DNA of 64,000 bases. Origin: Candidatus Poseidoniaceae archaeon (GTDB lineage Archaea > Thermoplasmatota > Poseidoniia > Poseidoniales > Poseidoniaceae). The notes under the pieces were generated by a model. That model worked only from the letters and a program-made list of their open reading frames with translations, was not told where the DNA came from and did no database searches. The translations under genes were made by a program, and so were the position numbers. The stretch lies in NCBI GenBank assembly GCA_949372875.1, contig CASIAW010000003.1, forward strand, positions 62,001 through 126,000. The letters are read 5' to 3'. Shown here one piece after another: positions 31,202 to 41,227 of the stretch (its first letter is position 1; every line of letters starts with the position of its first letter).

Positions 31202-34132
31202 TTGGCCGATTCTGTCGAGACTGACACTGGAACCTACATTGATGCAACAAATACGGGTACTGACCCATTGAATCCAGACACCGACGGTGATGGGATTTGC
31301 GACGGCCCAAATGCAGTACCTCCAATCTGTGTCGCAGGTCCAGACAGCGATCCGAACGGTGAGAGTTTCCCGCCAACCTTAGTTGCCGTGAACAACACCG
31401 TCATCTCAACGCTTGCTCCATACATGGCAGTGAGCGGTGGAACATACGAGATTGCACCTGACTTGCCAGCAACCCTGTCACTTGACCCCGCAACCGGTGA
31501 AATCACCGGTACAGCTACCGAAACCATCACCAACACCACCTATACCATGTGGTCGAACAACTCCAACGGCGATTCTCTGTCGTGGAACTTCACGATTGAA
31601 ATCTTGGAAGACAGCGATGGCGACGGTTTGCCAAACGAACTGCCGGACGATTATGATCCAACCAACCCAGATGCACCAGGTCTCATCGAAGATACTGATG
31701 ACGATGCTGACGGTACACCGGACATCGAAGAAGACGGAGACGGTACAGATTCAGCCAATCCAGATACCGATGGTGATGGAATGTGCGATGGTCCAAACGC
31801 AGTCGACCCGATTTGCGTTGCTGGTCCTGATGCATTCCCGCTTGACCCTTCAGGAGATACCGATACCGATGGTGACGGTAAGCCCGACACTCTCAATCCA
31901 CCTTCAAACAGTGTTCCTGCTTTGGAAGAAGACTTTGATGATGATGGTGACGGCCTCGAAGACGTCAATGAAACCAACACGGGTATTGCCAACGGTGACA
32001 CCGACACAGGAACCGACCCGCTCAACCCAGATACCGACAACGACGGAATTTGCGATGGACCAATCGATGTCTATGACCCGCAAGGCAACCTCATCTGCGT
32101 TGCAGGACCTGACGAAACTCCATTTGGCGAAGAAGCCTCAGGCATGGTGTACGGACTGAACAATACCCAATTCGCAAGCCTCGTGCCACCGTATCAATTA
32201 CCTGATGCTACATGGGAGATTTCTCCTGACCTTCCTCTTGGATTGAGCATTGACCCGGTAAGTGGAATCATCAGTGGAACACCGACTGAAGTGATGGAAA
32301 ACACAACATTCATCATTTACGGTAACGCTTCTGTTACGAACACCATTACCTTTGGTTTCAATCTGGAAATTCTCGAAGATACAGACCGAGACGGCCTGCC
32401 CAATGTCCTCCCAGATGATTATCCGGAAGACGGAGAACTCATCGAAGACTTGGACGATGACGGTGACGGTGCTTCTGACTTGAGCGAAACCGGTACTGGA
32501 ATCTACAACGGAACTGGAGACATGGGGACTGACCCGCTTGACCCTGACACCGATGACGATGGAATCTGTGACGGTCCAAACGATGTCTTGCCGCAATGTA
32601 TTGGCGGTCCTGACTCCAATCCGTTTGGAACCGGTCCACTTGGTCCGACTGTTTTGGTCAACAATTCAATAACCACTCCACTGCCACCTGCGAACCCAGT
32701 TCCTGGTGCAGTTTGGGAAGTCTCACCTGACTTGCCTGACGGTTTGGTTTTGGACTCTGCAACGGGAATCATCACTGGAACGCCAACCCAAACAATAGAC
32801 AACACGACGTTCACCATGTGGGCAAACACAACCACGCCAAGCATGTCGATTCTCTCGACGTTCTGGCTTGAAGTGCTCGAAGATTCAGACGGTGACGGCA
32901 TGCCGGACACACTGCCTGATGATTATCCAGACACCAATCCACCGTACGATCTCGTTGAAGATTTGGACGATGATAACGACGGCATGTCGGATGAAGATGA
33001 AGCAATCATTGGAACCGACCCAACAAATCCGGATACCGATGGCGATGGATTCTGTGACGGTAATGGAACCGGCGATGGCGACTGCTATGCTGGACCTGAT
33101 TCAGCACCGCTCGACCCACTTCAACCGGTCAATACCGACGGCGATGCCTATCCAGATAACGACCCAGACGGTGAAGGTGGATTAACCGCTGACGATGATG
33201 ACGATAACGATGGATTCCTCGACACCCGTGAATTGGAGTGCGAAAGCGACCCATTGAATGCAACGGACATTCCTCAAGATTTGGACCTCGATGGTGAATG
33301 TGATGCATTGGATGACGATATTGATGGTGATGGATTGCTCAACGTGATTGAAACTGATTCAGGTGTGTACAATTCAACGCTTGATACTGGTACTGACCCG
33401 CGAAACCCTGACTCCGATGGTGACGGCGTTTGTGACGGTCCAACATCTCCTCTGACAAGTAACTGTACGGCTGGACCAGATGCCTTCCCGCTTGATCCTG
33501 CAGCTCATACTGATACAGACGGAGACAGATTGCCAGACGAATTGTTTGGAAATTCAACCAGCATTCCTCCACTTGAACTTGACATGGATGACGATAACGA
33601 TGCTTGGAGTGACCTCGATGAAGTTGCATGTGGAACCGATACGCTCGATGACACAAGTACTCCTGTTGACACCGATGGCGATGGAATCTGTGACGCACTT
33701 GATGATTTACTGGACTTACCGTTTACCTTGACCTATCCAAGTCAAACACTCCAACTCAATGTTGATGAAGAAATGACGGCATTTATGCCAAACATCACTG
33801 GACTTGGCGAAGTTGCTACATGGGAAATCAGTGGCGAATTACCTGAAGGTTTGACCTTTGGATGGAGTCCTGCCCGAGATGCAATGCTTGACGGAAGCAT
33901 CCGTGGAACACCAACCGCTGCAATGAATATGACGAACTTTACGATTTGGGCTAACAATTCTGCCTACAGTCAATCGTTTGATGTCTCTTTGACCGTGAGC
34001 GAAGAAATCGCTCAGGAAGTCGAAGAAGACGACGATGACGACGATGCGGCGAGGGTTCGGTTGGATGTGGTGTTTCCCATGTTTGATTATCCTCTTGCTT
34101 CTGTTGCTCATTCCACTTCTCTTTGGAAGTGA
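31202..34132 (+). CDS. Giant surface protein, calcium-binding TSP3/Ig-like part
   Basis: About 950 residues of alternating modules: thrombospondin type 3-like acidic repeats (DPLNPDTDGDGICDG, DSDGDGMPDTLPDDYP, DDDNDGMSDEDEA) that should bind many Ca ions, and putative Ig domains with the sequence LPxxLxxDxxTGxITGTP. Short Cys-containing units (CDGPNAVPPICVAGPD) recur five to six times. It continues the previous part after correction of one base near 31117. It ends in an acidic run EVEEDDDDDD; the following 27 residues in this frame look out of frame, since the other frame gives a hydrophobic helix. Confidence 0.75.
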   Translation: MADSVETDTGTYIDATNTGTDPLNPDTDGDGICDGPNAVPPICVAGPDSDPNGESFPPTLVAVNNTVISTLAPYMAVSGGTYEIAPDLPATLSLDPATGEITGTATETITNTTYTMWSNNSNGDSLSWNFTIEILEDSDGDGLPNELPDDYDPTNPDAPGLIEDTDDDADGTPDIEEDGDGTDSANPDTDGDGMCDGPNAVDPICVAGPDAFPLDPSGDTDTDGDGKPDTLNPPSNSVPALEEDFDDDGDGLEDVNETNTGIANGDTDTGTDPLNPDTDNDGICDGPIDVYDPQGNLICVAGPDETPFGEEASGMVYGLNNTQFASLVPPYQLPDATWEISPDLPLGLSIDPVSGIISGTPTEVMENTTFIIYGNASVTNTITFGFNLEILEDTDRDGLPNVLPDDYPEDGELIEDLDDDGDGASDLSETGTGIYNGTGDMGTDPLDPDTDDDGICDGPNDVLPQCIGGPDSNPFGTGPLGPTVLVNNSITTPLPPANPVPGAVWEVSPDLPDGLVLDSATGIITGTPTQTIDNTTFTMWANTTTPSMSILSTFWLEVLEDSDGDGMPDTLPDDYPDTNPPYDLVEDLDDDNDGMSDEDEAIIGTDPTNPDTDGDGFCDGNGTGDGDCYAGPDSAPLDPLQPVNTDGDAYPDNDPDGEGGLTADDDDDNDGFLDTRELECESDPLNATDIPQDLDLDGECDALDDDIDGDGLLNVIETDSGVYNSTLDTGTDPRNPDSDGDGVCDGPTSPLTSNCTAGPDAFPLDPAAHTDTDGDRLPDELFGNSTSIPPLELDMDDDNDAWSDLDEVACGTDTLDDTSTPVDTDGDGICDALDDLLDLPFTLTYPSQTLQLNVDEEMTAFMPNITGLGEVATWEISGELPEGLTFGWSPARDAMLDGSIRGTPTAAMNMTNFTIWANNSAYSQSFDVSLTVSEEIAQEVEEDDDDDDAARVRLDVVFPMFDYPLASVAHSTSLWK

Positions 34133-36113
34133 CAAAATCCTCTTGATGTTGGCAGATGGTCCTGAACCAGAGAACACAACCTCCTCTCCTTCCTTCTTAT
34201 CTGGAAGTGGAACAGTTGACGATCCGTTTGTTTTGAAGCCAATTACCGGTCTTCAACCGGGTGAATCTGCAAGCAGTGTTGAAGTCATCACCATCGATAA
34301 GATGTCTGATATTAAGGTCGATATGATTGACTTGAATCAGGAATCGAATGGAGATAAGTTCTGCATGTATGAAGCCGAATTCGGCGATACTGGTACTCGA
34401 ATCATCGGAATTGGCAAGGATGGAGAAATCGTTATCAACATGAAATTCGATGACAGTATCGATACACCAACCTTTGAGGGCGGTGAATATTCTGGACTTT
34501 TGAAACTTGGTCGAGCAAGTGTCTATCTCTCATGGTCAGTCACTGTGAAGAAGAACATGGGCAAGAAGAAAAAGTACGAAAAAGAGTTGTCGAAGAAATC
34601 TGAAGAATCCAATGATTCCGAAAACACTGTTTCTGAAGACGATGAACCAGAAGGAACAGTTGATGTTGTCAAGGACAAGATCCATTCTACACTCGACCGT
34701 GATGGTGATGGAGAACTCTCAATCAAAGATGTCAAAGCAGGTGCTTCTCAAGTCGGTGAATCCGTCAAGAAGGGTGCTGGAAGTCTCAAAAAGACGGTTG
34801 TTCTTGTGAAGGATAAAACACATGAATTCCTTGACAGAGATGGCGATGGAAAATTGACCAGAGAAGACCTCAAAATTGCTACGGGACGAACCGATGAAAA
34901 GGTTGCAGCAGCAAAGGCTGCCAAAGAAGCAAAGGCTGCTGCAAAGAAAGCCAAGAAAGATGCTGTGGCTGCCGAAAAAGTTGCGGTTGCTGAAAGGGCT
35001 GAGCAAGAAGTACTCGCTCAATTTGAAGCCGAAAAGCAAGCCGACCAAAAGGCTGCGAAGGAAATAGCTGCCCTTGAAGCAAAAGTACAAGAGGAAGCCG
35101 ATTCAAAGGCTTTGGAAGAATCAAAAGCCAAGGTTGCTGCTGAAGAGATGAAAATTGAACAAGAAAAAGCAGGCCTCGAAAGGGCAGCAAAGGCTGCTGA
35201 AGAGATGTCTGCTGAGATCTCTATGACCAAAGCTCAGAAGGCTGCAAAAGCAAAGGCAGACGCTGAAGCCAAGGCTGCCGCTGCCAAGAAGAAGGCAGAC
35301 GCTGAAGCCAAGGCTGCCGCTGCCAAGAAGAAGGCAGACGCTGAAGCTAAGGCTGCTAAGGAAGCGGAAGCCAAGGCTGCTAAGGATGCGGAAGCCAAGG
35401 CTGCCGCTGCCAAGGAGAAGGCAGACGCTGAAGCGAAGGCTGCTAAGGATGCCAAGGCTGCTAAGGAAGCGGAAGCCAAAGCAAAGGCTGTCGCAAAACC
35501 AGTTTCGAAGGAAGTCAAGAAGGAGCAAGAAATCAAGCGTGTTCAACAACGTGCGAAGACCATTGACTTCAAGATACTCGGAACTGCCAAAGCCAGCGAT
35601 AAAGACGACCTTCAAGTCATCAAGGGCATTGGACCATTCATTGAAGAGAAACTCAATGCTTTGGGGATTTACACTTATCTGCAAATCTCGAAGATGACCT
35701 CCAACCTTGAAACTGATGTCAATGAAGCTATCGAGTTCTTCCCTGGCCGTGTGAAGCGAGACCAGTGGGTGAACCAAGCAAAGATATTGTTGGGTGAAGA
35801 TGTCAAACTTGATGAAAAGGCACTGAAGCAAGCCGAAGACTTGGAACGAATTTCCAAGAAATCAGAGTCAATTGACTTCGCCACACTTGGAATTGCCTCA
35901 GCCTCAGACAAAGATGTTCTTCAAACCATCAAAGGTATTGGACCGTTCATTGAAGAGAAACTCTACGCACTGGGAATCTTTACCTTTGAACAAGTTGGCA
36001 ACATGACGCCTGAAATCGAAACACAAGTCAATCTTGCCATCGAGTTTTTCCCTGGAAGAGTCAAGCGAGACCAGTGGGCAAAGCAAGCAAGGAAGTTGCA
36101 CAACGACAACTGA
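34035..36113 (+). CDS. Membrane-anchored EF-hand, coiled-coil, helix-hairpin-helix protein (C-terminal part of giant locus or separate gene)
   Basis: Residues about 13-32 are strongly hydrophobic (CFPCLIILLLLLLIPLLF). Then an Ig-like or beta domain (about 60-180), two EF-hand loops DRDGDGELSIKD and DRDGDGKLTRED (about 220-280), a long Ala/Lys/Glu coiled coil (about 285-500, with 13-residue repeats AEAKAAAAKKKAD) and two helix-hairpin-helix units (LQVIKGIGPFIEEKLNALGI and LQTIKGIGPFIEEKLYALGI, about 507-610 and 610-692). It overlaps the preceding frame by 98 bp. Either the acidic run upstream is fused to this helix through an indel near 34050, giving a surface protein with a cytoplasmic tail, or this is a separate signal-anchored protein. 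Confidence 0.72.
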   Translation: MTTMRRGFGWMWCFPCLIILLLLLLIPLLFGSDKILLMLADGPEPENTTSSPSFLSGSGTVDDPFVLKPITGLQPGESASSVEVITIDKMSDIKVDMIDLNQESNGDKFCMYEAEFGDTGTRIIGIGKDGEIVINMKFDDSIDTPTFEGGEYSGLLKLGRASVYLSWSVTVKKNMGKKKKYEKELSKKSEESNDSENTVSEDDEPEGTVDVVKDKIHSTLDRDGDGELSIKDVKAGASQVGESVKKGAGSLKKTVVLVKDKTHEFLDRDGDGKLTREDLKIATGRTDEKVAAAKAAKEAKAAAKKAKKDAVAAEKVAVAERAEQEVLAQFEAEKQADQKAAKEIAALEAKVQEEADSKALEESKAKVAAEEMKIEQEKAGLERAAKAAEEMSAEISMTKAQKAAKAKADAEAKAAAAKKKADAEAKAAAAKKKADAEAKAAKEAEAKAAKDAEAKAAAAKEKADAEAKAAKDAKAAKEAEAKAKAVAKPVSKEVKKEQEIKRVQQRAKTIDFKILGTAKASDKDDLQVIKGIGPFIEEKLNALGIYTYLQISKMTSNLETDVNEAIEFFPGRVKRDQWVNQAKILLGEDVKLDEKALKQAEDLERISKKSESIDFATLGIASASDKDVLQTIKGIGPFIEEKLYALGIFTFEQVGNMTPEIETQVNLAIEFFPGRVKRDQWAKQARKLHNDN
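35235..35490 (+). repeat. Ala/Lys-rich 39-bp tandem repeats
   Basis: The coiled-coil segment contains near-identical units encoding DAEAKAAAAKKKA (two exact 39-bp copies starting near 35260) followed by degenerate KAAKEAEAKAAKDAE units. In-frame, no break seen. Confidence 0.75.
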
Positions 36114-36116
36114 GGC

Positions 36117-36731
36117 TTAGACAACGGGACCTCGGATGAGGAATGCCACCCAAAGCAGCGAAAGCAATGTCCCACATATTTTGAAGACACGAGGACCTTT
36201 CACAGGGTCGGTGAACAGATTGGACGCTTTATCGCCAAAGAAAGTCCAGACCATCATAGCCAAGATACAGATTGTGATTGTGATGCTTGCAATCAAGAGA
36301 ATCGCCTTTAAGCCACCTCCAAATGGAGTGATAAATTGACTCATGATAATGATGATGAAAGCCCATTCCTTCCCATTGGCAAATTGCATTGCAACACCCG
36401 TTTTGAAACCAATCCTTTGGTGGTTTTCTGAGATGCCCAGGGTACTCGGATTTATGCGAAATATCGTCAACGCCATAGCTGCTAAAAACGTCATTCCAAT
36501 CCAATGAAGTGCGACGAGTGCAGTTTCATTCTCCTTCAAGGACTCGATGGTCAACCCGATGATCAATTCCATCATGAAAATTCCAACTGCCATACCGGCA
36601 ATTAAACCAACATTACTTTTCTTCCCGAAGACACCACTGTGAGTGAATGCAGCGATTGGATTTGGGCCAGGAGTCGCCAAACCAATCCCGATAAGGATCA
36701 AGAGTTCGAGTAGGGCTGTGGTGAAATCCAT
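36117..36731 (-). CDS. LysE/RhtB-family exporter
   Basis: A 204-residue membrane protein with about six hydrophobic segments. The N-terminal signature ATPGPNPIAAFTHSGVFGKK (about 19-38) and the following GLIAGMAVGIF block are those of LysE-type amino acid exporters; the second half contains AMQFANGKEWAF, matching the conserved NPK/K region. Substrate cannot be predicted. Converges on the giant surface-protein locus with a 3-bp gap. ATG at 36731. Confidence 0.88.
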   Translation of the reverse strand: MDFTTALLELLILIGIGLATPGPNPIAAFTHSGVFGKKSNVGLIAGMAVGIFMMELIIGLTIESLKENETALVALHWIGMTFLAAMALTIFRINPSTLGISENHQRIGFKTGVAMQFANGKEWAFIIIIMSQFITPFGGGLKAILLIASITITICILAMMVWTFFGDKASNLFTDPVKGPRVFKICGTLLSLLWVAFLIRGPVV

Positions 36732-36791: not shown

Positions 36792-36935
36792 TTAGACGAA
36801 ATAGAAATACAACGGGGTAATAGAAAATACACCGATATAAAGCAAGGCCTTGAGGGGTCGAACCCACCATTTGTTTTCTTCAGCATCCATAAAGTCGCCA
36901 ACTACTTCGATCACTGGCTCAACCAATTCAATCAT
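36792..36935 (-). CDS. 47-residue small membrane protein, FMDAEENKWWVRPLK family
   Basis: A short gene with an N-terminal amphipathic stretch (MIELVEPVIEVVGD), the motif FMDAEENKWWVRPLK (residues 15-29) and a C-terminal hydrophobic helix ending YFYFV. A paralogue of 48 residues at 46109-46255 shares this motif exactly, with different flanking codons and a similar C-terminus, which strongly supports both being translated. A TATA-like GCATATGAAAC lies about 25 bases upstream, consistent with a leaderless mRNA. Function unknown; it sits between the LysE exporter and the coiled-coil operon. Confidence 0.78.
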   Translation of the reverse strand: MIELVEPVIEVVGDFMDAEENKWWVRPLKALLYIGVFSITPLYFYFV

Positions 36936-37020: not shown

Positions 37021-37267
37021 TCAGAGTAAAAGGTAAACTGCTGCTCCACAAATGAAGGTTGTGAGTAAGGCAATGATGCCAATTTTCATTCCATTCGATG
37101 TGCTTGCTTCTGGTTCAAGTGCAACCGGTTCTGTTGGAATTGCATTTTGTGCATCCCAATACGCTTGCTTTTCTGCAGCACCAGCATCTAATTCTGCCTC
37201 TTCTTTCATTTCTTTAGCGAGACGTGCTTCTTCAGCCAATCGTGCTTCTTCGGCCAATCGTGCTTCT
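37021..37267 (-). CDS. C-terminal part of tail-anchored coiled-coil protein (after frameshift)
   Basis: This frame continues the AEEARLAEEARLA repeats of the upstream part (37268-37897), then reads KEMKEEAELDAGAAEKQAYW, a Pro/Glu linker and a C-terminal transmembrane helix (GIIALLTTFICGAAVYLLL) ending at the last residue. The break between the two parts is one extra G near 37271 (CAGGCC where other 18-bp units have CAGCC). In the intact form the protein would be a tail-anchored membrane protein. Confidence 0.7.
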
Positions 37268-37580
37268 TCAGGCCAACCGTGCTTCCTCGGCTAATCGTGC
37301 TTCTTCAGCCAACCTTGCTTCTTCAGAGAGTCGTGCCTCTTCAGCCAATCTTTCTTGTTCTGCCTGGTGTGCTTCTCTGGCCAACCGAACTCCTTCCGCA
37401 ACCCGTGCTTCAGTAGCAATCCGATTTTCTTCAGCGAGCCGTGCCTCTTCGATGAGTCGTGCCTCTTCAGCCAATCGCGCTGCTTCAGCAAGCCGTGCTT
37501 CTTCGATAAGTCGTGCTTCTTCATTCAATCGAGCTTCCTCAGCCAATCGTGCTTCTTCCACCTGTCGTTCGGCTTCAGTT
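37200..37580 (-). repeat. 18-bp coiled-coil repeats
   Basis: On the plus strand GCTTCTTCAGCCAATCGT-like units recur about every 18 bp, encoding six-residue AEEARL on the minus strand. One unit near 37265 is 19 bp long and causes the frameshift. Confidence 0.8.
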
Positions 37581-37897
37581 GCAGCCTGATTCGCCGCTTG
37601 TTCCGCTGCAAGGAGACGAATACGTTCGCTTACAGCATCAGTGTTATCGTTACGATATCGGTTCAGAACAGCCTCAGCCATTTGGATGAAATCTTCATGC
37701 GGGATTCCATCAATGACTTTACCCGTTTCAAATAATATCCGTTCAACGTTTTCAATCTGGAATTCTCCTTCAAAGGAATTCAAATTGTCTCGAAACGCTT
37801 TGTAAAATTCAGTCTGCTTAGCAGAAAGAGCACCGTCTTTCGTCATGTAATCTTGCAAGGAATACAAGACTTCAGACAATTTGAGCGGAGTTGTCAC
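37268..37897 (-). CDS. Coiled-coil protein with EEARLA repeats, N-terminal part
   Basis: A 209-residue frame. Residues about 1-95 form a helical folded domain (LSEVLYSLQDYMTKDGALS, then KAFRDNLNSFEGEF) that I do not recognise. From about 100 on it is an Arg/Glu/Ala coiled coil of six-residue AEEARL repeats. The reading frame stops early only because of a one-base insertion within the repeats; the membrane anchor is in the next frame (37021-37267). A strong AGGTGAAAT ribosome-binding site precedes the ATG. It is the last large gene of the operon 40709-37021. Confidence 0.72.
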   Translation of the reverse strand: MTTPLKLSEVLYSLQDYMTKDGALSAKQTEFYKAFRDNLNSFEGEFQIENVERILFETGKVIDGIPHEDFIQMAEAVLNRYRNDNTDAVSERIRLLAAEQAANQAATEAERQVEEARLAEEARLNEEARLIEEARLAEAARLAEEARLIEEARLAEENRIATEARVAEGVRLAREAHQAEQERLAEEARLSEEARLAEEARLAEEARLA

Positions 37898-37955
37898 GGT
37901 ATTTCACCTCCGAATAAGCAAGGAATTTCACTTTAAACCGTGCTTCTTTCGTGAT

Positions 37956-39971
37956 TCATCGTTGGCCCAATGGTAAGCGAGTTTCAACAGACGCAGATAG
38001 TGGGCATAGACCATCTTTCTCCATTCTCTGGTGAAGGATTTTATTGTTGATGAAAATATCGCCCCAAAGATTGGCTGCTGTACCTTTTGTACCCTTTGGC
38101 AAGTCGAAAACTTCCGTTATTGTAGGTTCAAGCAAGGCTCGCCAAACTCGTGCAGGATTAACGGCCATGGTGACTTCGACGATGATCTCGTTTTCATTCA
38201 AACCAGTACCAGTTTGCCACGAGTCTTCACCCATGTCGGCAAGGAACGGCAAACAAACATCTTGGATAGAGAGACTTGTCATTGGGTCTGCATTGGTGAG
38301 CGAAGCATATGCTTCACGCATACGTCCACGGTCTGCTCCACGAGAGCCAGTAATCGAGCGTAGCTTGTCGATTGATGTTGGTACCAAGAAACGGATATCT
38401 GTATAGTAAACCAATGGGTTGTTGTCACGAGCTCCAAAGATATGGTCGTATGGAGCAGGGTCACCGGATTCTCCAAGGTCTGTAATCGGATAAATTGTCT
38501 TCAAGGCGTTTGTAGCAATCGATTGTATGCAACGGCGCATCAATCGGTCAGGTGCTGCGGAGATGTCGTTGAAGGTCTGGAGGTATTCATCCATACTCAT
38601 GACATCGTATCCTCGAACGGAGAGAATCGAGTGAACGTTTGGTCCAATCTGTTTCTTATCTCCTTTCTTTTCATGGAAATCGGCTTGTGTGATCCATCGG
38701 GAACCTTGAGCAACTTCGCTTGCAGTTACCAAATCAGCGTAAGCCTTGAATCGGCGAGTGACACGGTTCATGAAATCAGCTTGGTCGAGTTTTGTAAACA
38801 CAGTCGCTTCGTAATTGGACTTCAATGCATGGTCAGCAACTTGGCTGGCGTTTACACAGGTCAACAAGTTTCCTTGGTCACGAGGGTAAATGATGAGGCG
38901 ACGACGCTTTGCACCACCACCAAGACTACCAATTCCAGGGTCAGTGAGCATGTATCCCAATGAAGCACAGACTTCGAATAAACGAGCATACTTGTCTTCA
39001 TCGGTGGCACTTGCAATCCATTCATCCAATCCAGGTTCAATGCAGTGGAATTCGAGCGGAACCATTTCTGAACCTGCGCCGAACATCTGACGAACTGTTG
39101 TTGAACTCATCATGCCCATCAAACAGTAAAGAGATGTCTTACCAGTGGTCATGTAAATATCAGTAATACCTTCTTCACCGAATGAAAGACGACGGTCGGG
39201 CAAATTGACGAGGAGGTTGAAGGCAGTTGGTGATTCACGGTTACCGTTAACAGCAGGCCAAATCCAGGTGCTTGGTCGTGTCATCACGTATCCGCTTGCG
39301 TCCTTTCCAAAACCTGCAGGTGAGAATCGTGTCCAACCTAGACGGTTGTTGAACGAAACACCTCTGTGCATAAGAGAAGGGTAGTAACATTGGTCCAACG
39401 GATCAGAGTCAGGAACGATTCCACGGTGGCCAAGGCCCCAAAGAATAGTTTCCCATTCAGGTACTTCTCCTTCGGGTGCCCCAAGGAATGGGTGAGTACT
39501 GCTTGGGCCGTCTCCTGTTAGGAAGGAACCGCCCATGCGCTCTTCGTCTCCAGCGGAACAAATAAACAGAGTTTGAGTTGTTGACAATTGCTTTGGAGTC
39601 CACATGTTCGCATTGAGAATGGTTTTCTGCTTGAGGAATTCAGCGACATTGGCGATTCGGCGTTCGAACTTGAATCGCTCGGATTCAATCCAACTCGATC
39701 CGAGAATCAAATTGGTGTTCAGCAAACGTGCTCGTGCTGGACCGATGTAGCGTGTACGTGGGTCAGGCTTCGAGATGTCAGAGGCAGGATTTTCTTCCCA
39801 AGGTCCTGTCTGAGGAATGTATTTCAAGAATTCAACATGGTCGAATTCTCCGACTTGAGCTTTTGATACGGCTTCTTCGACAATGTCCATTAAGCGAACA
39901 TAAGATTCGCTCGGACGCATTATTTTGTTTTCAGTATAGACTTTATTTGATACAGTTCGATGTTCCCACAT
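37956..39971 (-). CDS. 671-residue protein of unknown family
   Basis: A large soluble protein with no signal peptide or membrane helix and no family that I recognise. Visible features: TQTLFICSAGDEERMGGSFL (about 132-151), many aromatic residues around 160-230 (LGWTRFSPAGFG, PSTWIWPAVNG), a glycine-rich basic segment GIGSLGGGAKRRRLIIYPRD (about 350-369) and a folded C-terminus (VEVTMAVNPARVWRALLEP). No NTPase, protease or nuclease motif is complete. Preceded by an AGGTGAAATT ribosome-binding site and by a membrane coiled-coil gene nine bases upstream; followed after 58 bp by a tail-anchored coiled-coil gene. It may be a structural or scaffold protein held at the membrane by its neighbours. 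Confidence 0.85.
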   Translation of the reverse strand: MWEHRTVSNKVYTENKIMRPSESYVRLMDIVEEAVSKAQVGEFDHVEFLKYIPQTGPWEENPASDISKPDPRTRYIGPARARLLNTNLILGSSWIESERFKFERRIANVAEFLKQKTILNANMWTPKQLSTTQTLFICSAGDEERMGGSFLTGDGPSSTHPFLGAPEGEVPEWETILWGLGHRGIVPDSDPLDQCYYPSLMHRGVSFNNRLGWTRFSPAGFGKDASGYVMTRPSTWIWPAVNGNRESPTAFNLLVNLPDRRLSFGEEGITDIYMTTGKTSLYCLMGMMSSTTVRQMFGAGSEMVPLEFHCIEPGLDEWIASATDEDKYARLFEVCASLGYMLTDPGIGSLGGGAKRRRLIIYPRDQGNLLTCVNASQVADHALKSNYEATVFTKLDQADFMNRVTRRFKAYADLVTASEVAQGSRWITQADFHEKKGDKKQIGPNVHSILSVRGYDVMSMDEYLQTFNDISAAPDRLMRRCIQSIATNALKTIYPITDLGESGDPAPYDHIFGARDNNPLVYYTDIRFLVPTSIDKLRSITGSRGADRGRMREAYASLTNADPMTSLSIQDVCLPFLADMGEDSWQTGTGLNENEIIVEVTMAVNPARVWRALLEPTITEVFDLPKGTKGTAANLWGDIFINNKILHQRMEKDGLCPLSASVETRLPLGQR

Positions 39972-39980
39972 AATTTCACC

Positions 39981-40709
39981 TCAGAATTTCTTTTTTGGCC
40001 CGTTTTCAACCTGTTCTTCGGTTTCGGTGCTGGCATCACCGTCTTCTTCCGCTGCTTCTTCAGTTGCTGCTGCTGTTTCCACTGCTTCTTCTTTCGCTGC
40101 TTCTTCCGCTTCTACTTCTTCAGTTGCTGCTGCGATAGCCTCAGTTTCCGCCGCTTCGACTTTCGCCGCTTCGACTTTCGCCGCTACCTTGGCATCCACT
40201 TTCGCTTTCTTTGCAGCCGCTTTTACTTCCTTCACAGCCGCTTTAGCAGCCGCTTCCGCCGCTGCTACTTCTTCAGCTTCAGCTTCTTCCTCCGCTGCTG
40301 CAACAATTTCGTCAGCGATCTTTTCCGCTGTTTCTTGGATTTGCTCTTCCTTTACCGCAGTAATGATGAGTGCAGCTGTTGCTTGCATTGAAGCGTCAAC
40401 ATAAGGTGCTGCTCGATAGAAATATTGAATCATGGTACCGACGGTGCCAAAGACTGCACCTGTGCCAATAACCCAGCCGTTGTTGATGTTTTGAACTCGG
40501 TCAGGGTCGCCAAAAATCTCTGAGGCAGGAATACCTGTTTCTGGCGCCCACCATGTGGCACCTGTAGCGTTTGTGATTACCTCAATAGTGGCCCAAACGG
40601 CATAAATGAGCATCAAAATGGACATATAATTTACAAATGTTCTGTTTTCGAGGAGGAATCGTATCAATGCGCGGTCATGCGTTTGATTACCTTTCGAGAC
40701 GTTGGACAT
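39981..40709 (-). CDS. Membrane protein with long Ala/Glu coiled-coil tail
   Basis: A 242-residue protein: two transmembrane helices (about 28-48, YMSILMLIYAVWATIEVI, and about 76-96, GWVIGTGAVFGTVGTMIQYF), then from about 105 on a helix composed mostly of Ala, Glu and Lys (EKIADEIVAAAEEEAEAEEV) up to an acidic C-terminus ending KKKF. The tail should be cytoplasmic and form a coiled coil. First gene of a probable operon with the 671-residue protein (9-bp gap) and the tail-anchored coiled-coil protein. Confidence 0.78.
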   Translation of the reverse strand: MSNVSKGNQTHDRALIRFLLENRTFVNYMSILMLIYAVWATIEVITNATGATWWAPETGIPASEIFGDPDRVQNINNGWVIGTGAVFGTVGTMIQYFYRAAPYVDASMQATAALIITAVKEEQIQETAEKIADEIVAAAEEEAEAEEVAAAEAAAKAAVKEVKAAAKKAKVDAKVAAKVEAAKVEAAETEAIAAATEEVEAEEAAKEEAVETAAATEEAAEEDGDASTETEEQVENGPKKKF

Positions 40710-40724
40710 GGGGTGAGGTTGAAA

Positions 40725-40736
40725 CCATTATACCTT
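40725..40736 (-). promoter_or_regulatory. TATA-like promoter of the coiled-coil operon
   Basis: On the minus strand AAGGTATAATGG is centred about 22 bases before ATG 40709, the spacing expected for an archaeal TATA box of a leaderless or short-leader mRNA. Confidence 0.4.
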
Positions 40737-40744
40737 AACTTAGG

Positions 40745-40760
40745 CCCTTTCATAATAGGT
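40745..40760. promoter_or_regulatory. Third copy of the mscS-type palindrome
   Basis: CCCTTTCATAATAGGT matches the palindrome at 23659 at 13 of 16 positions and lies just upstream of the TATA-like box of the coiled-coil operon. Confidence 0.3.
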
Positions 40761-40850
40761 TGATGGCGAGATGTTTGGCTTTCGGCTTCCGACTTCAATT
40801 CAGTCCCCGTGGTGTCATACCTTTTTCGCAAAAAAACGTGTGAAGTCTCT

Positions 40851-41227
40851 TCAAGCATCACTTTGAGCAATGAGGTCTTTGCGATTGAGTGTTTTGGTGC
40901 TCTTTCGAGATGGTTGTGGCGTTCTTTCACCTGAATCCATTTGTTCCTTGAACCACGCAAGTTGTTCTGATTTCGAAAACAAATCTTGAGACGTTTTTTT
41001 GTACGGTATTGTAGAATGCCAAGGTAGGCGACAGGAACAAGGAACAAAGCCCCGAGGAAAAATCGAGCACGAACGCCCCACTTCTCCGCATTCTCATCCG
41101 GTGGGGAATAGGGTTCGTCTCCTTCATCGATTAGGGTGTAGCTCGAGGACAATGAATAGGTGAGACTTGGGACATCTTGACCCCAATCGTGCTGCGTCAT
41201 TGGTATCATCTCGTTACCGACGAACAT
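40851..41227 (-). CDS. Small membrane protein split by a homopolymer frameshift
   Basis: The N-terminal part (from ATG 41227, or 41200) is acidic (SLSSSYTLIDEGDEPYSPPD), followed by one transmembrane helix (FFLGALFLVPVAYLGILQY). At a run of seven T on the plus strand (40994-41000) the frame must change: the continuation that looks like protein is KTSQDLFSKSEQLAWFKEQM to KTLNRKDLIAQSDA, stopping at 40851. Without a shift, the frame runs into an implausible tail overlapping the next gene. Together they give about 125 residues with a cytoplasmic tail. Error in the T7 run, or genuine slippage, are both possible. Function unknown. Confidence 0.55.

Follow-up and report, generated by a model that had tools for sequence, protein, structure and literature searches.

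The two genes described here, one encoding a large orphan protein and the other a membrane protein directly upstream of it, may form a membrane-cytoskeleton module of the Poseidoniales, and on balance we lean towards a reading in which the orphan is a diverged protein of tubulin-like fold, attached to the membrane via short C-terminal tails ending in lysine-phenylalanine (KF). The genes lie in a 64,000-nucleotide stretch of a Candidatus Poseidoniaceae genome (GCA_949372875.1, contig CASIAW010000003.1; hereafter the window), which corresponds to C3:62001-126000 of a 2.16-Mb, 13-contig genome labelled G000. We refer to the orphan open reading frame (ORF) as ORF680 and to the membrane protein, TM2, as its partner. 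The Poseidoniales rank among the most common uncultured archaea in surface seawater, and to our knowledge little is known of their cell biology.

The conserved unit is this pair and not a trio. Ninety-seven loci were examined (96 fetched and the window), of which 81 were scored; the 16 unscored loci comprise 12 with less than 300 nucleotides (nt) upstream, one without a start and three without an upstream ORF bearing a hydrophobic stretch (L076 and L088, which are masked, and L121, whose contig starts inside the partner). With six re-fetched duplicates removed, there are 75 scored loci out of 78 distinct ones with enough upstream sequence, and in these 75 a membrane protein lies directly upstream of ORF680, the other three being masked or cut. 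The partner stop and the ORF680 start are separated by 9-11 nt in 69 of the 75, a figure produced by a pairing script that discarded ORFs lacking a hydrophobic stretch and chose the one nearest 11 nt, and that is biased towards both features; genes were called with a simple longest-ORF script and the hydropathy counts are crude. The pair is kept in at least six different genomic contexts, with thermosome and PurH genes downstream in much of the genera labelled g1 and g11 and other genes in g12, g13, g2, g5/g9 and g14. Since the surroundings vary by clade while the pair stays, we regard the pair as the unit.

The original prediction had proposed a membrane-associated scaffold or filament built from three genes, the third encoding an AEEARL coiled-coil protein downstream of ORF680. 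Its general direction was right, given the regular partner and the predicted fold described below, but the three-gene version does not survive a check of neighbourhoods in related genomes: the genes do occur as neighbours, and the AEEARL gene follows ORF680 in only 20 of 87 loci. One of these is the window, and the others are 19 of its 20 nearest loci (87-98% identity). In other loci the next gene encodes a thermosome subunit or is unrelated, and the AEEARL gene is an accessory found only beside the ORF680 copies nearest the window's. The partner had been described as a two-helix membrane protein with an Ala/Glu coiled-coil tail. The 242-amino-acid (aa) membrane protein and its Ala/Glu tail are indeed present, but by hydropathy only the first helix is clear in the window, the second being inferred from relatives (the matching stretch scores well in L091). 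Across the 75 loci, partners have two hydrophobic stretches in 66 cases, one in eight (the window included) and three in one. They range from 70 to 398 aa, with a tail of almost nothing to about 300 charged residues, and the coiled coil is not conserved as such, being replaced in relatives by a charged, variable linker that is sometimes nearly absent. By the positive-inside rule, this tail would be cytoplasmic.

The conserved part of the partner is instead its C-terminal KF. The original prediction does not mention this end, nor that other membrane neighbours of ORF680 share it. KF closes the partner in 67 of 75 scored loci, whatever the partner length, and the tail is a clear new feature of the conserved two-gene system. 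Two partners that lack this end belong to loci with ambiguous or masked letters: that of L069 runs out of a masked stretch, and the ORF680 of L065 contains ambiguous letters. Of the 1271 distinct called ORFs of at least 60 aa in the loci, those with a [KR]F end number 68 and all belong to gene groups adjoining ORF680; because many of the 1271 are homologous to each other (spurious ORFs are included as well), this is not a count of independent events. The KF-ending groups are the partners, an opposite-strand group in g2 (c53), two further groups in g5/g9 (c96) and g14 (c72), and a downstream protein in L147. In g14 it is the c72 group that carries the [KR]F end, while the small partner ends in KH. 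Of 193 genomes, eight have strong c53 matches (E 1.3e-30 or better); all eight belong to g2 and contain ORF680. Three weak matches in g3 stop at residue 64 or 81 of 100.

A general KF sorting signal was considered and rejected. A scan of two genomes gave 33 pattern matches (20 and 13), of which 30 were read, and more matches (59 and 20) came from a reversed control pattern; the scan pattern was written without CGN arginine codons. Three long KF-ending ORFs were recovered: two are the partners of the respective genomes (201 and 242 aa), and the third is a frame of 501 aa in G059. The remaining matches are two ORFs of 71 and 96 aa without a hydrophobic stretch, and others that are at most 40 aa long or are not at a stop. 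The 501-aa frame (L166) lies far from ORF680, closes with ESKKKF and ends like a relative of the protein encoded at 34035-36113 (plus strand) in the window, whose own copy ends HNDN. This protein carries an N-terminal hydrophobic helix and an EF-hand match barely above cut-off. It also has a long Ala/Lys/Glu coil, and its C-terminal part holds two repeats that resemble each other (Cdd1 match) and that we take to be helix-hairpin-helix; its type is possibly a second KF-tailed client. Separately, membrane proteins upstream of divergent pairs (L141:6839-7831, L142:4160-5158 and L144:6391-7665) have in common an ending of the type SM[AQ]DRYG..[HD]RKF after an acidic or proline-rich linker; the g14 protein of this set has a DUF2135 match below cut-off.

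ORF680 itself is restricted in range and strongly conserved. Intact relatives are mostly 677-697 aa long. The window copy has one extra base at 38005 with respect to the 97%-identical relative L060. Relatives align with it to about residue 655 and diverge after, and a second match piece in a different frame supplies the missing end. The relatives, of which the best 80 of 125 were kept, come from records named Candidatus Poseidoniaceae, Candidatus Poseidoniales, Poseidonia and Euryarchaeota, mostly metagenome-assembled genomes, with the chromosome CM001443.1 among them. ORF680 is present in 27 of 59 near relatives (the window's own genome counted), in 107 of 292 Poseidoniales genomes and 10 of 22 genera, and in 19 of the 35 Poseidoniales genomes with completeness of at least 90% and contamination of at most 5%. 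A set of 389 genomes from the phylum contained 55 with a match at E<=0.1, two of these being marginal (0.07 inside the order, 0.09 outside); apart from the latter, no match was seen outside the Poseidoniales in this set, and viral contigs and phage records held no relative. Identity among the compared members is at least about 57%. Twelve diverse members (alignment A3) show a mean column identity of 74%, a MWEH start in 12 of 12 and many invariant polar residues; such strong conservation is unusual for a patchily present orphan. In a tree of 31 members, sequences of the second Poseidoniales family fall in two places, g2 with g12/g13 (95/91) and g5/g9 with g14 (100/100), which suggests that ORF680 may have passed between the two families; g14 and g17 form long branches in this tree, and genus labels were assigned via contig positions.

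Standard searches place ORF680 in no recognisable family, as had been claimed for it; the frame analysed at that stage leaves its proper course near the end. No usable match was obtained in Pfam, NCBIfam, PHROGs, PADLOC or the Protein Data Bank (PDB; single sequence and profile), or among phage records and viral contigs, and what was listed is at chance level (one PDB chain at E 0.52; Transposase_1 at E 0.16 in one of 12 members). The case for a tubulin-like fold comes from the alignment, from which the hypothesis was drawn and written down before the first Foldseek result, and from two AlphaFold models, which used different crops and alignments yet are not independent of each other. The first (full length, 47 sequences) is poor, with a mean predicted local distance difference test score (pLDDT) of 43; tubulin entries nonetheless make up 49 of its 50 listed Foldseek matches, OdinTubulin among them, with a best E of 0.016. 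The second, covering residues 118-680 of L060 with 68 sequences, reached a pLDDT of 54.7 and a predicted template modelling score (pTM) of 0.63, and from residue 268 onwards 35 of 42 ten-residue blocks average at least 50 (up to 81). Its 15 Foldseek matches at E<=0.001 are all tubulin entries (best 7m2z_A, 1.4e-4, probability 1.00), and the 50 listed comprise 48 tubulin and two FtsZ entries. This comparison, which the original prediction had proposed as a check, brought up no confident match to an unrelated known family.

The elements of the second model can be named after those of tubulin (in protein numbering, S4 271-274, H4 278-296, S5 306-310, H5 324-343, S6 357-361, H6 367-385, H7 394-420, S7 449-459, H9 473-490, S8 521-530, H10 548-559, S9 567-573, S10 595-604, H11 606-614 or 632-652, and H12 656-677). 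The order S4-H4-S5-H5-S6-H6-H7-S7-H9-S8-H10-S9-S10-H11-H12 fits tubulin, without H8 and with some extra short elements, and residues ~267-680 of the intact protein are probably built like tubulin, as judged from these models. GKTS is found in 90 of 90 ORF680 rows, with [T/S]GKTS at 276-280 in the place of the T4 signature.

Several observations weigh against this reading. No Pfam tubulin model (PF00091 among them) matches any of the 12 members, the viral library gave no tubulin match, and a profile comparison with 33 archaeal FtsZ-type sequences scored 13.7, with 35 of 39 other families higher (range 12.2-23.3). The T4 signature, sought as GGGTG or GGTG[ST]G, is present in 0 of 90 rows (six of them re-fetched copies), and failing this defining feature bars membership, for which reason ORF680 is not filed as a tubulin. 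The T7 acid depends on the register chosen, being either the invariant D396/D399 or the variable D431 in A3; the early placement at D396/D399 is insecure, and judged by its helices the second model has H7 more likely at 394-420. The TM-scores from Foldseek are low (0.16-0.36), residues 368-427 (presumed H6 and H7) have a pLDDT of 39-49 in the second model, and both models are of low to moderate confidence and leave the N-terminal ~270 residues (before ~267) unmodelled. Of the tails, five partners (all g14) end in KH and one (L147) in KI, and the KF codons of the partner touch the ribosome-binding site of ORF680, so that part of their conservation could lie at the DNA level.

The tubulin likeness might instead be an artefact of weak models, and ORF680 a membrane-recruited protein of another, unknown fold, such as an enzyme or a receptor for KF-tailed membrane proteins. 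Strong conservation with many invariant polar residues would suit an enzyme, and both the low mean pLDDT values (43 and 55) and the lack of sequence-profile support fit this alternative; we nevertheless think it unlikely, since both models rank tubulins first, the S4-H12 order fits and the idea predates the search. A related possibility, somewhat less doubtful and overlapping with our preferred reading as a special form of it, is that ORF680 has the tubulin fold and acts independently of nucleotide as a static membrane scaffold or as an adaptor for KF-tailed proteins, and not as a dynamic filament. The loss of the GGGTGSG loop and a T7 acid that is not clearly kept are what one would expect of such a pseudo-tubulin, whereas GKTS in the T4 place, together with the invariance of D396/D399 in the 12 A3 members, suggests a nucleotide or metal site that has been changed and retained.

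Two further alternatives concern the neighbours of ORF680. The KF tail could be the side effect of a DNA element, AAATTYTGAGGTGA, that precedes ORF680, and no docking peptide at all: its lysine codon is AAA in 68 of 73 rows and the stop TGA in 69 of 73 (six of the 73 being re-fetched copies). This appears improbable to us, because the phenylalanine codon varies (TTC 40, TTT 33) and because the same end is found on proteins whose genes do not adjoin the ribosome-binding site of ORF680 and for which a DNA-level cause is no explanation, namely c53 on the opposite strand, c96 and c72 one gene further upstream, and the downstream protein in L147. That the thermosome (TCP-1) gene follows ORF680 in 32 of 87 loci could in turn point to an operon with a dedicated chaperone for a tubulin-like protein. 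We rejected this idea, which we rate as very improbable: two to four thermosome genes occur in seven of seven genomes tested, including G036, where ORF680 has no match, and in the window genome no thermosome gene lies next to ORF680.

Returning to the membrane-cytoskeleton module, we tentatively propose the following arrangement. ORF680 would be a soluble protein with a deeply diverged, tubulin-like fold after its unmodelled N-terminal part. The partner would cross the membrane, probably twice, and project into the cytoplasm a tail that is flexible, charged and highly variable in length. The free C-terminal [K/R]KF of this tail could serve as a docking peptide that keeps ORF680, or its polymer, at the membrane. 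Certain lineages may carry this peptide also, or instead, on other membrane proteins adjoining the ORF680 gene. Binding of KF by ORF680, polymerisation and a role as membrane scaffold are what this arrangement would entail. Whether GTP would be bound is less certain, because [T/S]GKTS replaces the T4 signature GGGTGSG. The window genome has two clear FtsZ genes, so ORF680 is not the division FtsZ, and a role other than primary division (in shape, membrane domains or the positioning of a surface machine) is most likely. The same genome has a third, weaker tubulin-family match at G000:C3:159639-160103, outside the window, with 51 bits, over cut-off, in a 312-codon frame.

In the window, the order of genes is partner, ORF680, AEEARL protein (split over two frames) and, last, a membrane ORF of 47 aa (Table 1). 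This last ORF is present as originally described, and the AEEARL protein does have the C-terminal hydrophobic helix of a tail anchor, but is split into two ORFs in different frames. Near-identical ribosome-binding sites had been reported for the genes of the group; AGGTGAAAT does precede the ORF680 and AEEARL genes, but not the 242-aa gene. The supposed single-helix protein upstream (40664-41227) fares less well and resembles a fragment, since the ORF overlaps a stretch whose DNA is 70% identical to a portion of a 743-codon open frame located elsewhere in this genome. The alignment of L060 with the window (E<=1e-20) is restricted to 37308-40802, and even this close relative therefore diverges upstream.

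Table 1 Features of the ORF680 locus, in window positions
Feature	Position	Strand	Remark
ORF680, large orphan protein, 671-aa ORF as read, N terminus MWEH	37956..39971	-	conservation, models, Foldseek
Natural C-terminal end of ORF680 in the relatives' frame, stop 37928-37930	37928..38005	-	out of frame in the window
TM2, the 242-aa membrane partner, first helix clear and second inferred, with a long charged Ala/Glu tail	39981..40709	-	
KKKF C terminus of the partner	39984..39995	-	final KF in 67/75 scored loci
Ribosome-binding site of ORF680, AGGTGAAAT	39973..39981	-	overlaps the partner's TGA stop
AEEARL coiled-coil protein, N-terminal part, 209 aa	37268..37897	-	
AEEARL protein, C-terminal part, 78 aa, membrane tail anchor	37021..37257	-	other frame
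Ribosome-binding site of the AEEARL protein, AGGTGAAAT	37901..37909	-	
47-aa membrane ORF	36792-36935	-	
LysE-type transporter	36117-36731	-	E 9.8e-9; beyond the 47-aa membrane ORF

Frame breaks cluster within about 4 kb of this region (37257-37268, 38005 and 40664-41227) and are either sequencing errors or real decay. The window and g9 loci (L140, L142 and L150) both have the LysE-type transporter group (c67) in the neighbourhood of ORF680, in differing orientation. Further away, at 31202-34132 on the plus strand, a 976-aa ORF is packed with Asp-rich repeats of the DxDGD type and has what we take to be the look of secreted calcium-binding proteins.

If the preferred reading is correct, a tubulin relative invisible to these sequence searches would widen the range of the superfamily and of the nucleotide sites compatible with its fold, and the KF tail suggests a membrane-tethering rule that is open to a cheap and immediate test. 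Even with the fold call wrong, the conserved orphan, its regular membrane partner and the common C-terminal tag would together represent a new receptor-like system. Among the papers listed on Poseidoniales, the archaeal tubulin superfamily and the Marine Group II cytoskeleton, none has a title that describes such a family.

Among known proteins, eukaryotic and Asgard tubulins (alpha, beta, gamma and OdinTubulin) are the best Foldseek matches of both models and share the S4-H12 order. They differ from ORF680 in that no sequence similarity is detected and in size (450 against ~680 aa), and ORF680 has no GGGTGSG loop, no visible H8 and an unmodelled N-terminal part. CetZ belongs to the tubulin family proper, and the Pfam model for FtsZl1 is presumably Tubulin_2, PF13809, which matches neither the window ORF680 nor the 12 A3 members, nor anything in the window genome. 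FtsZl1, discussed in the context of membrane-remodelling systems, is a large, diverged protein of the tubulin superfamily that is encoded beside membrane proteins and coexists with FtsZ (PMC2875224). ORF680 would resemble FtsZl1 as a large, diverged tubulin-like protein encoded beside membrane proteins in a genome with FtsZ, but FtsZl1 keeps GGGTG(S/T)G, which ORF680 lacks; FtsZl1 also contains a coiled coil, and its neighbours include vWA proteins and GTPases (PMC2875224). Of the ORF680 neighbours scanned, only one (L141) has a weak vWA match, below cut-off, no systematic vWA search having been made. CetZ is an archaeal tubulin relative outside division (PMC9856176), as ORF680 would be, but ORF680 has no Pfam tubulin match.

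Perhaps the closest parallel in organisation is that of FtsZ and its membrane anchors SepF, FtsA and ZipA, where, too, a linear peptide together with a flexible charged linker recruits a cytoskeletal protein to the membrane. The direction is reversed here, with peptide and linker placed on the transmembrane anchor, and FtsZ genes coexist with the pair in the window genome. We would give roughly even chances to the broader proposal that ORF680 represents an unrecognised tubulin-like family of marine archaea, without the classical GTP-binding loop and recruited by [K/R]KF via transmembrane linkers, which would constitute a membrane cytoskeleton distinct from FtsZ, CetZ and FtsZl1 and would have moved as a unit between the two families of Poseidoniales.

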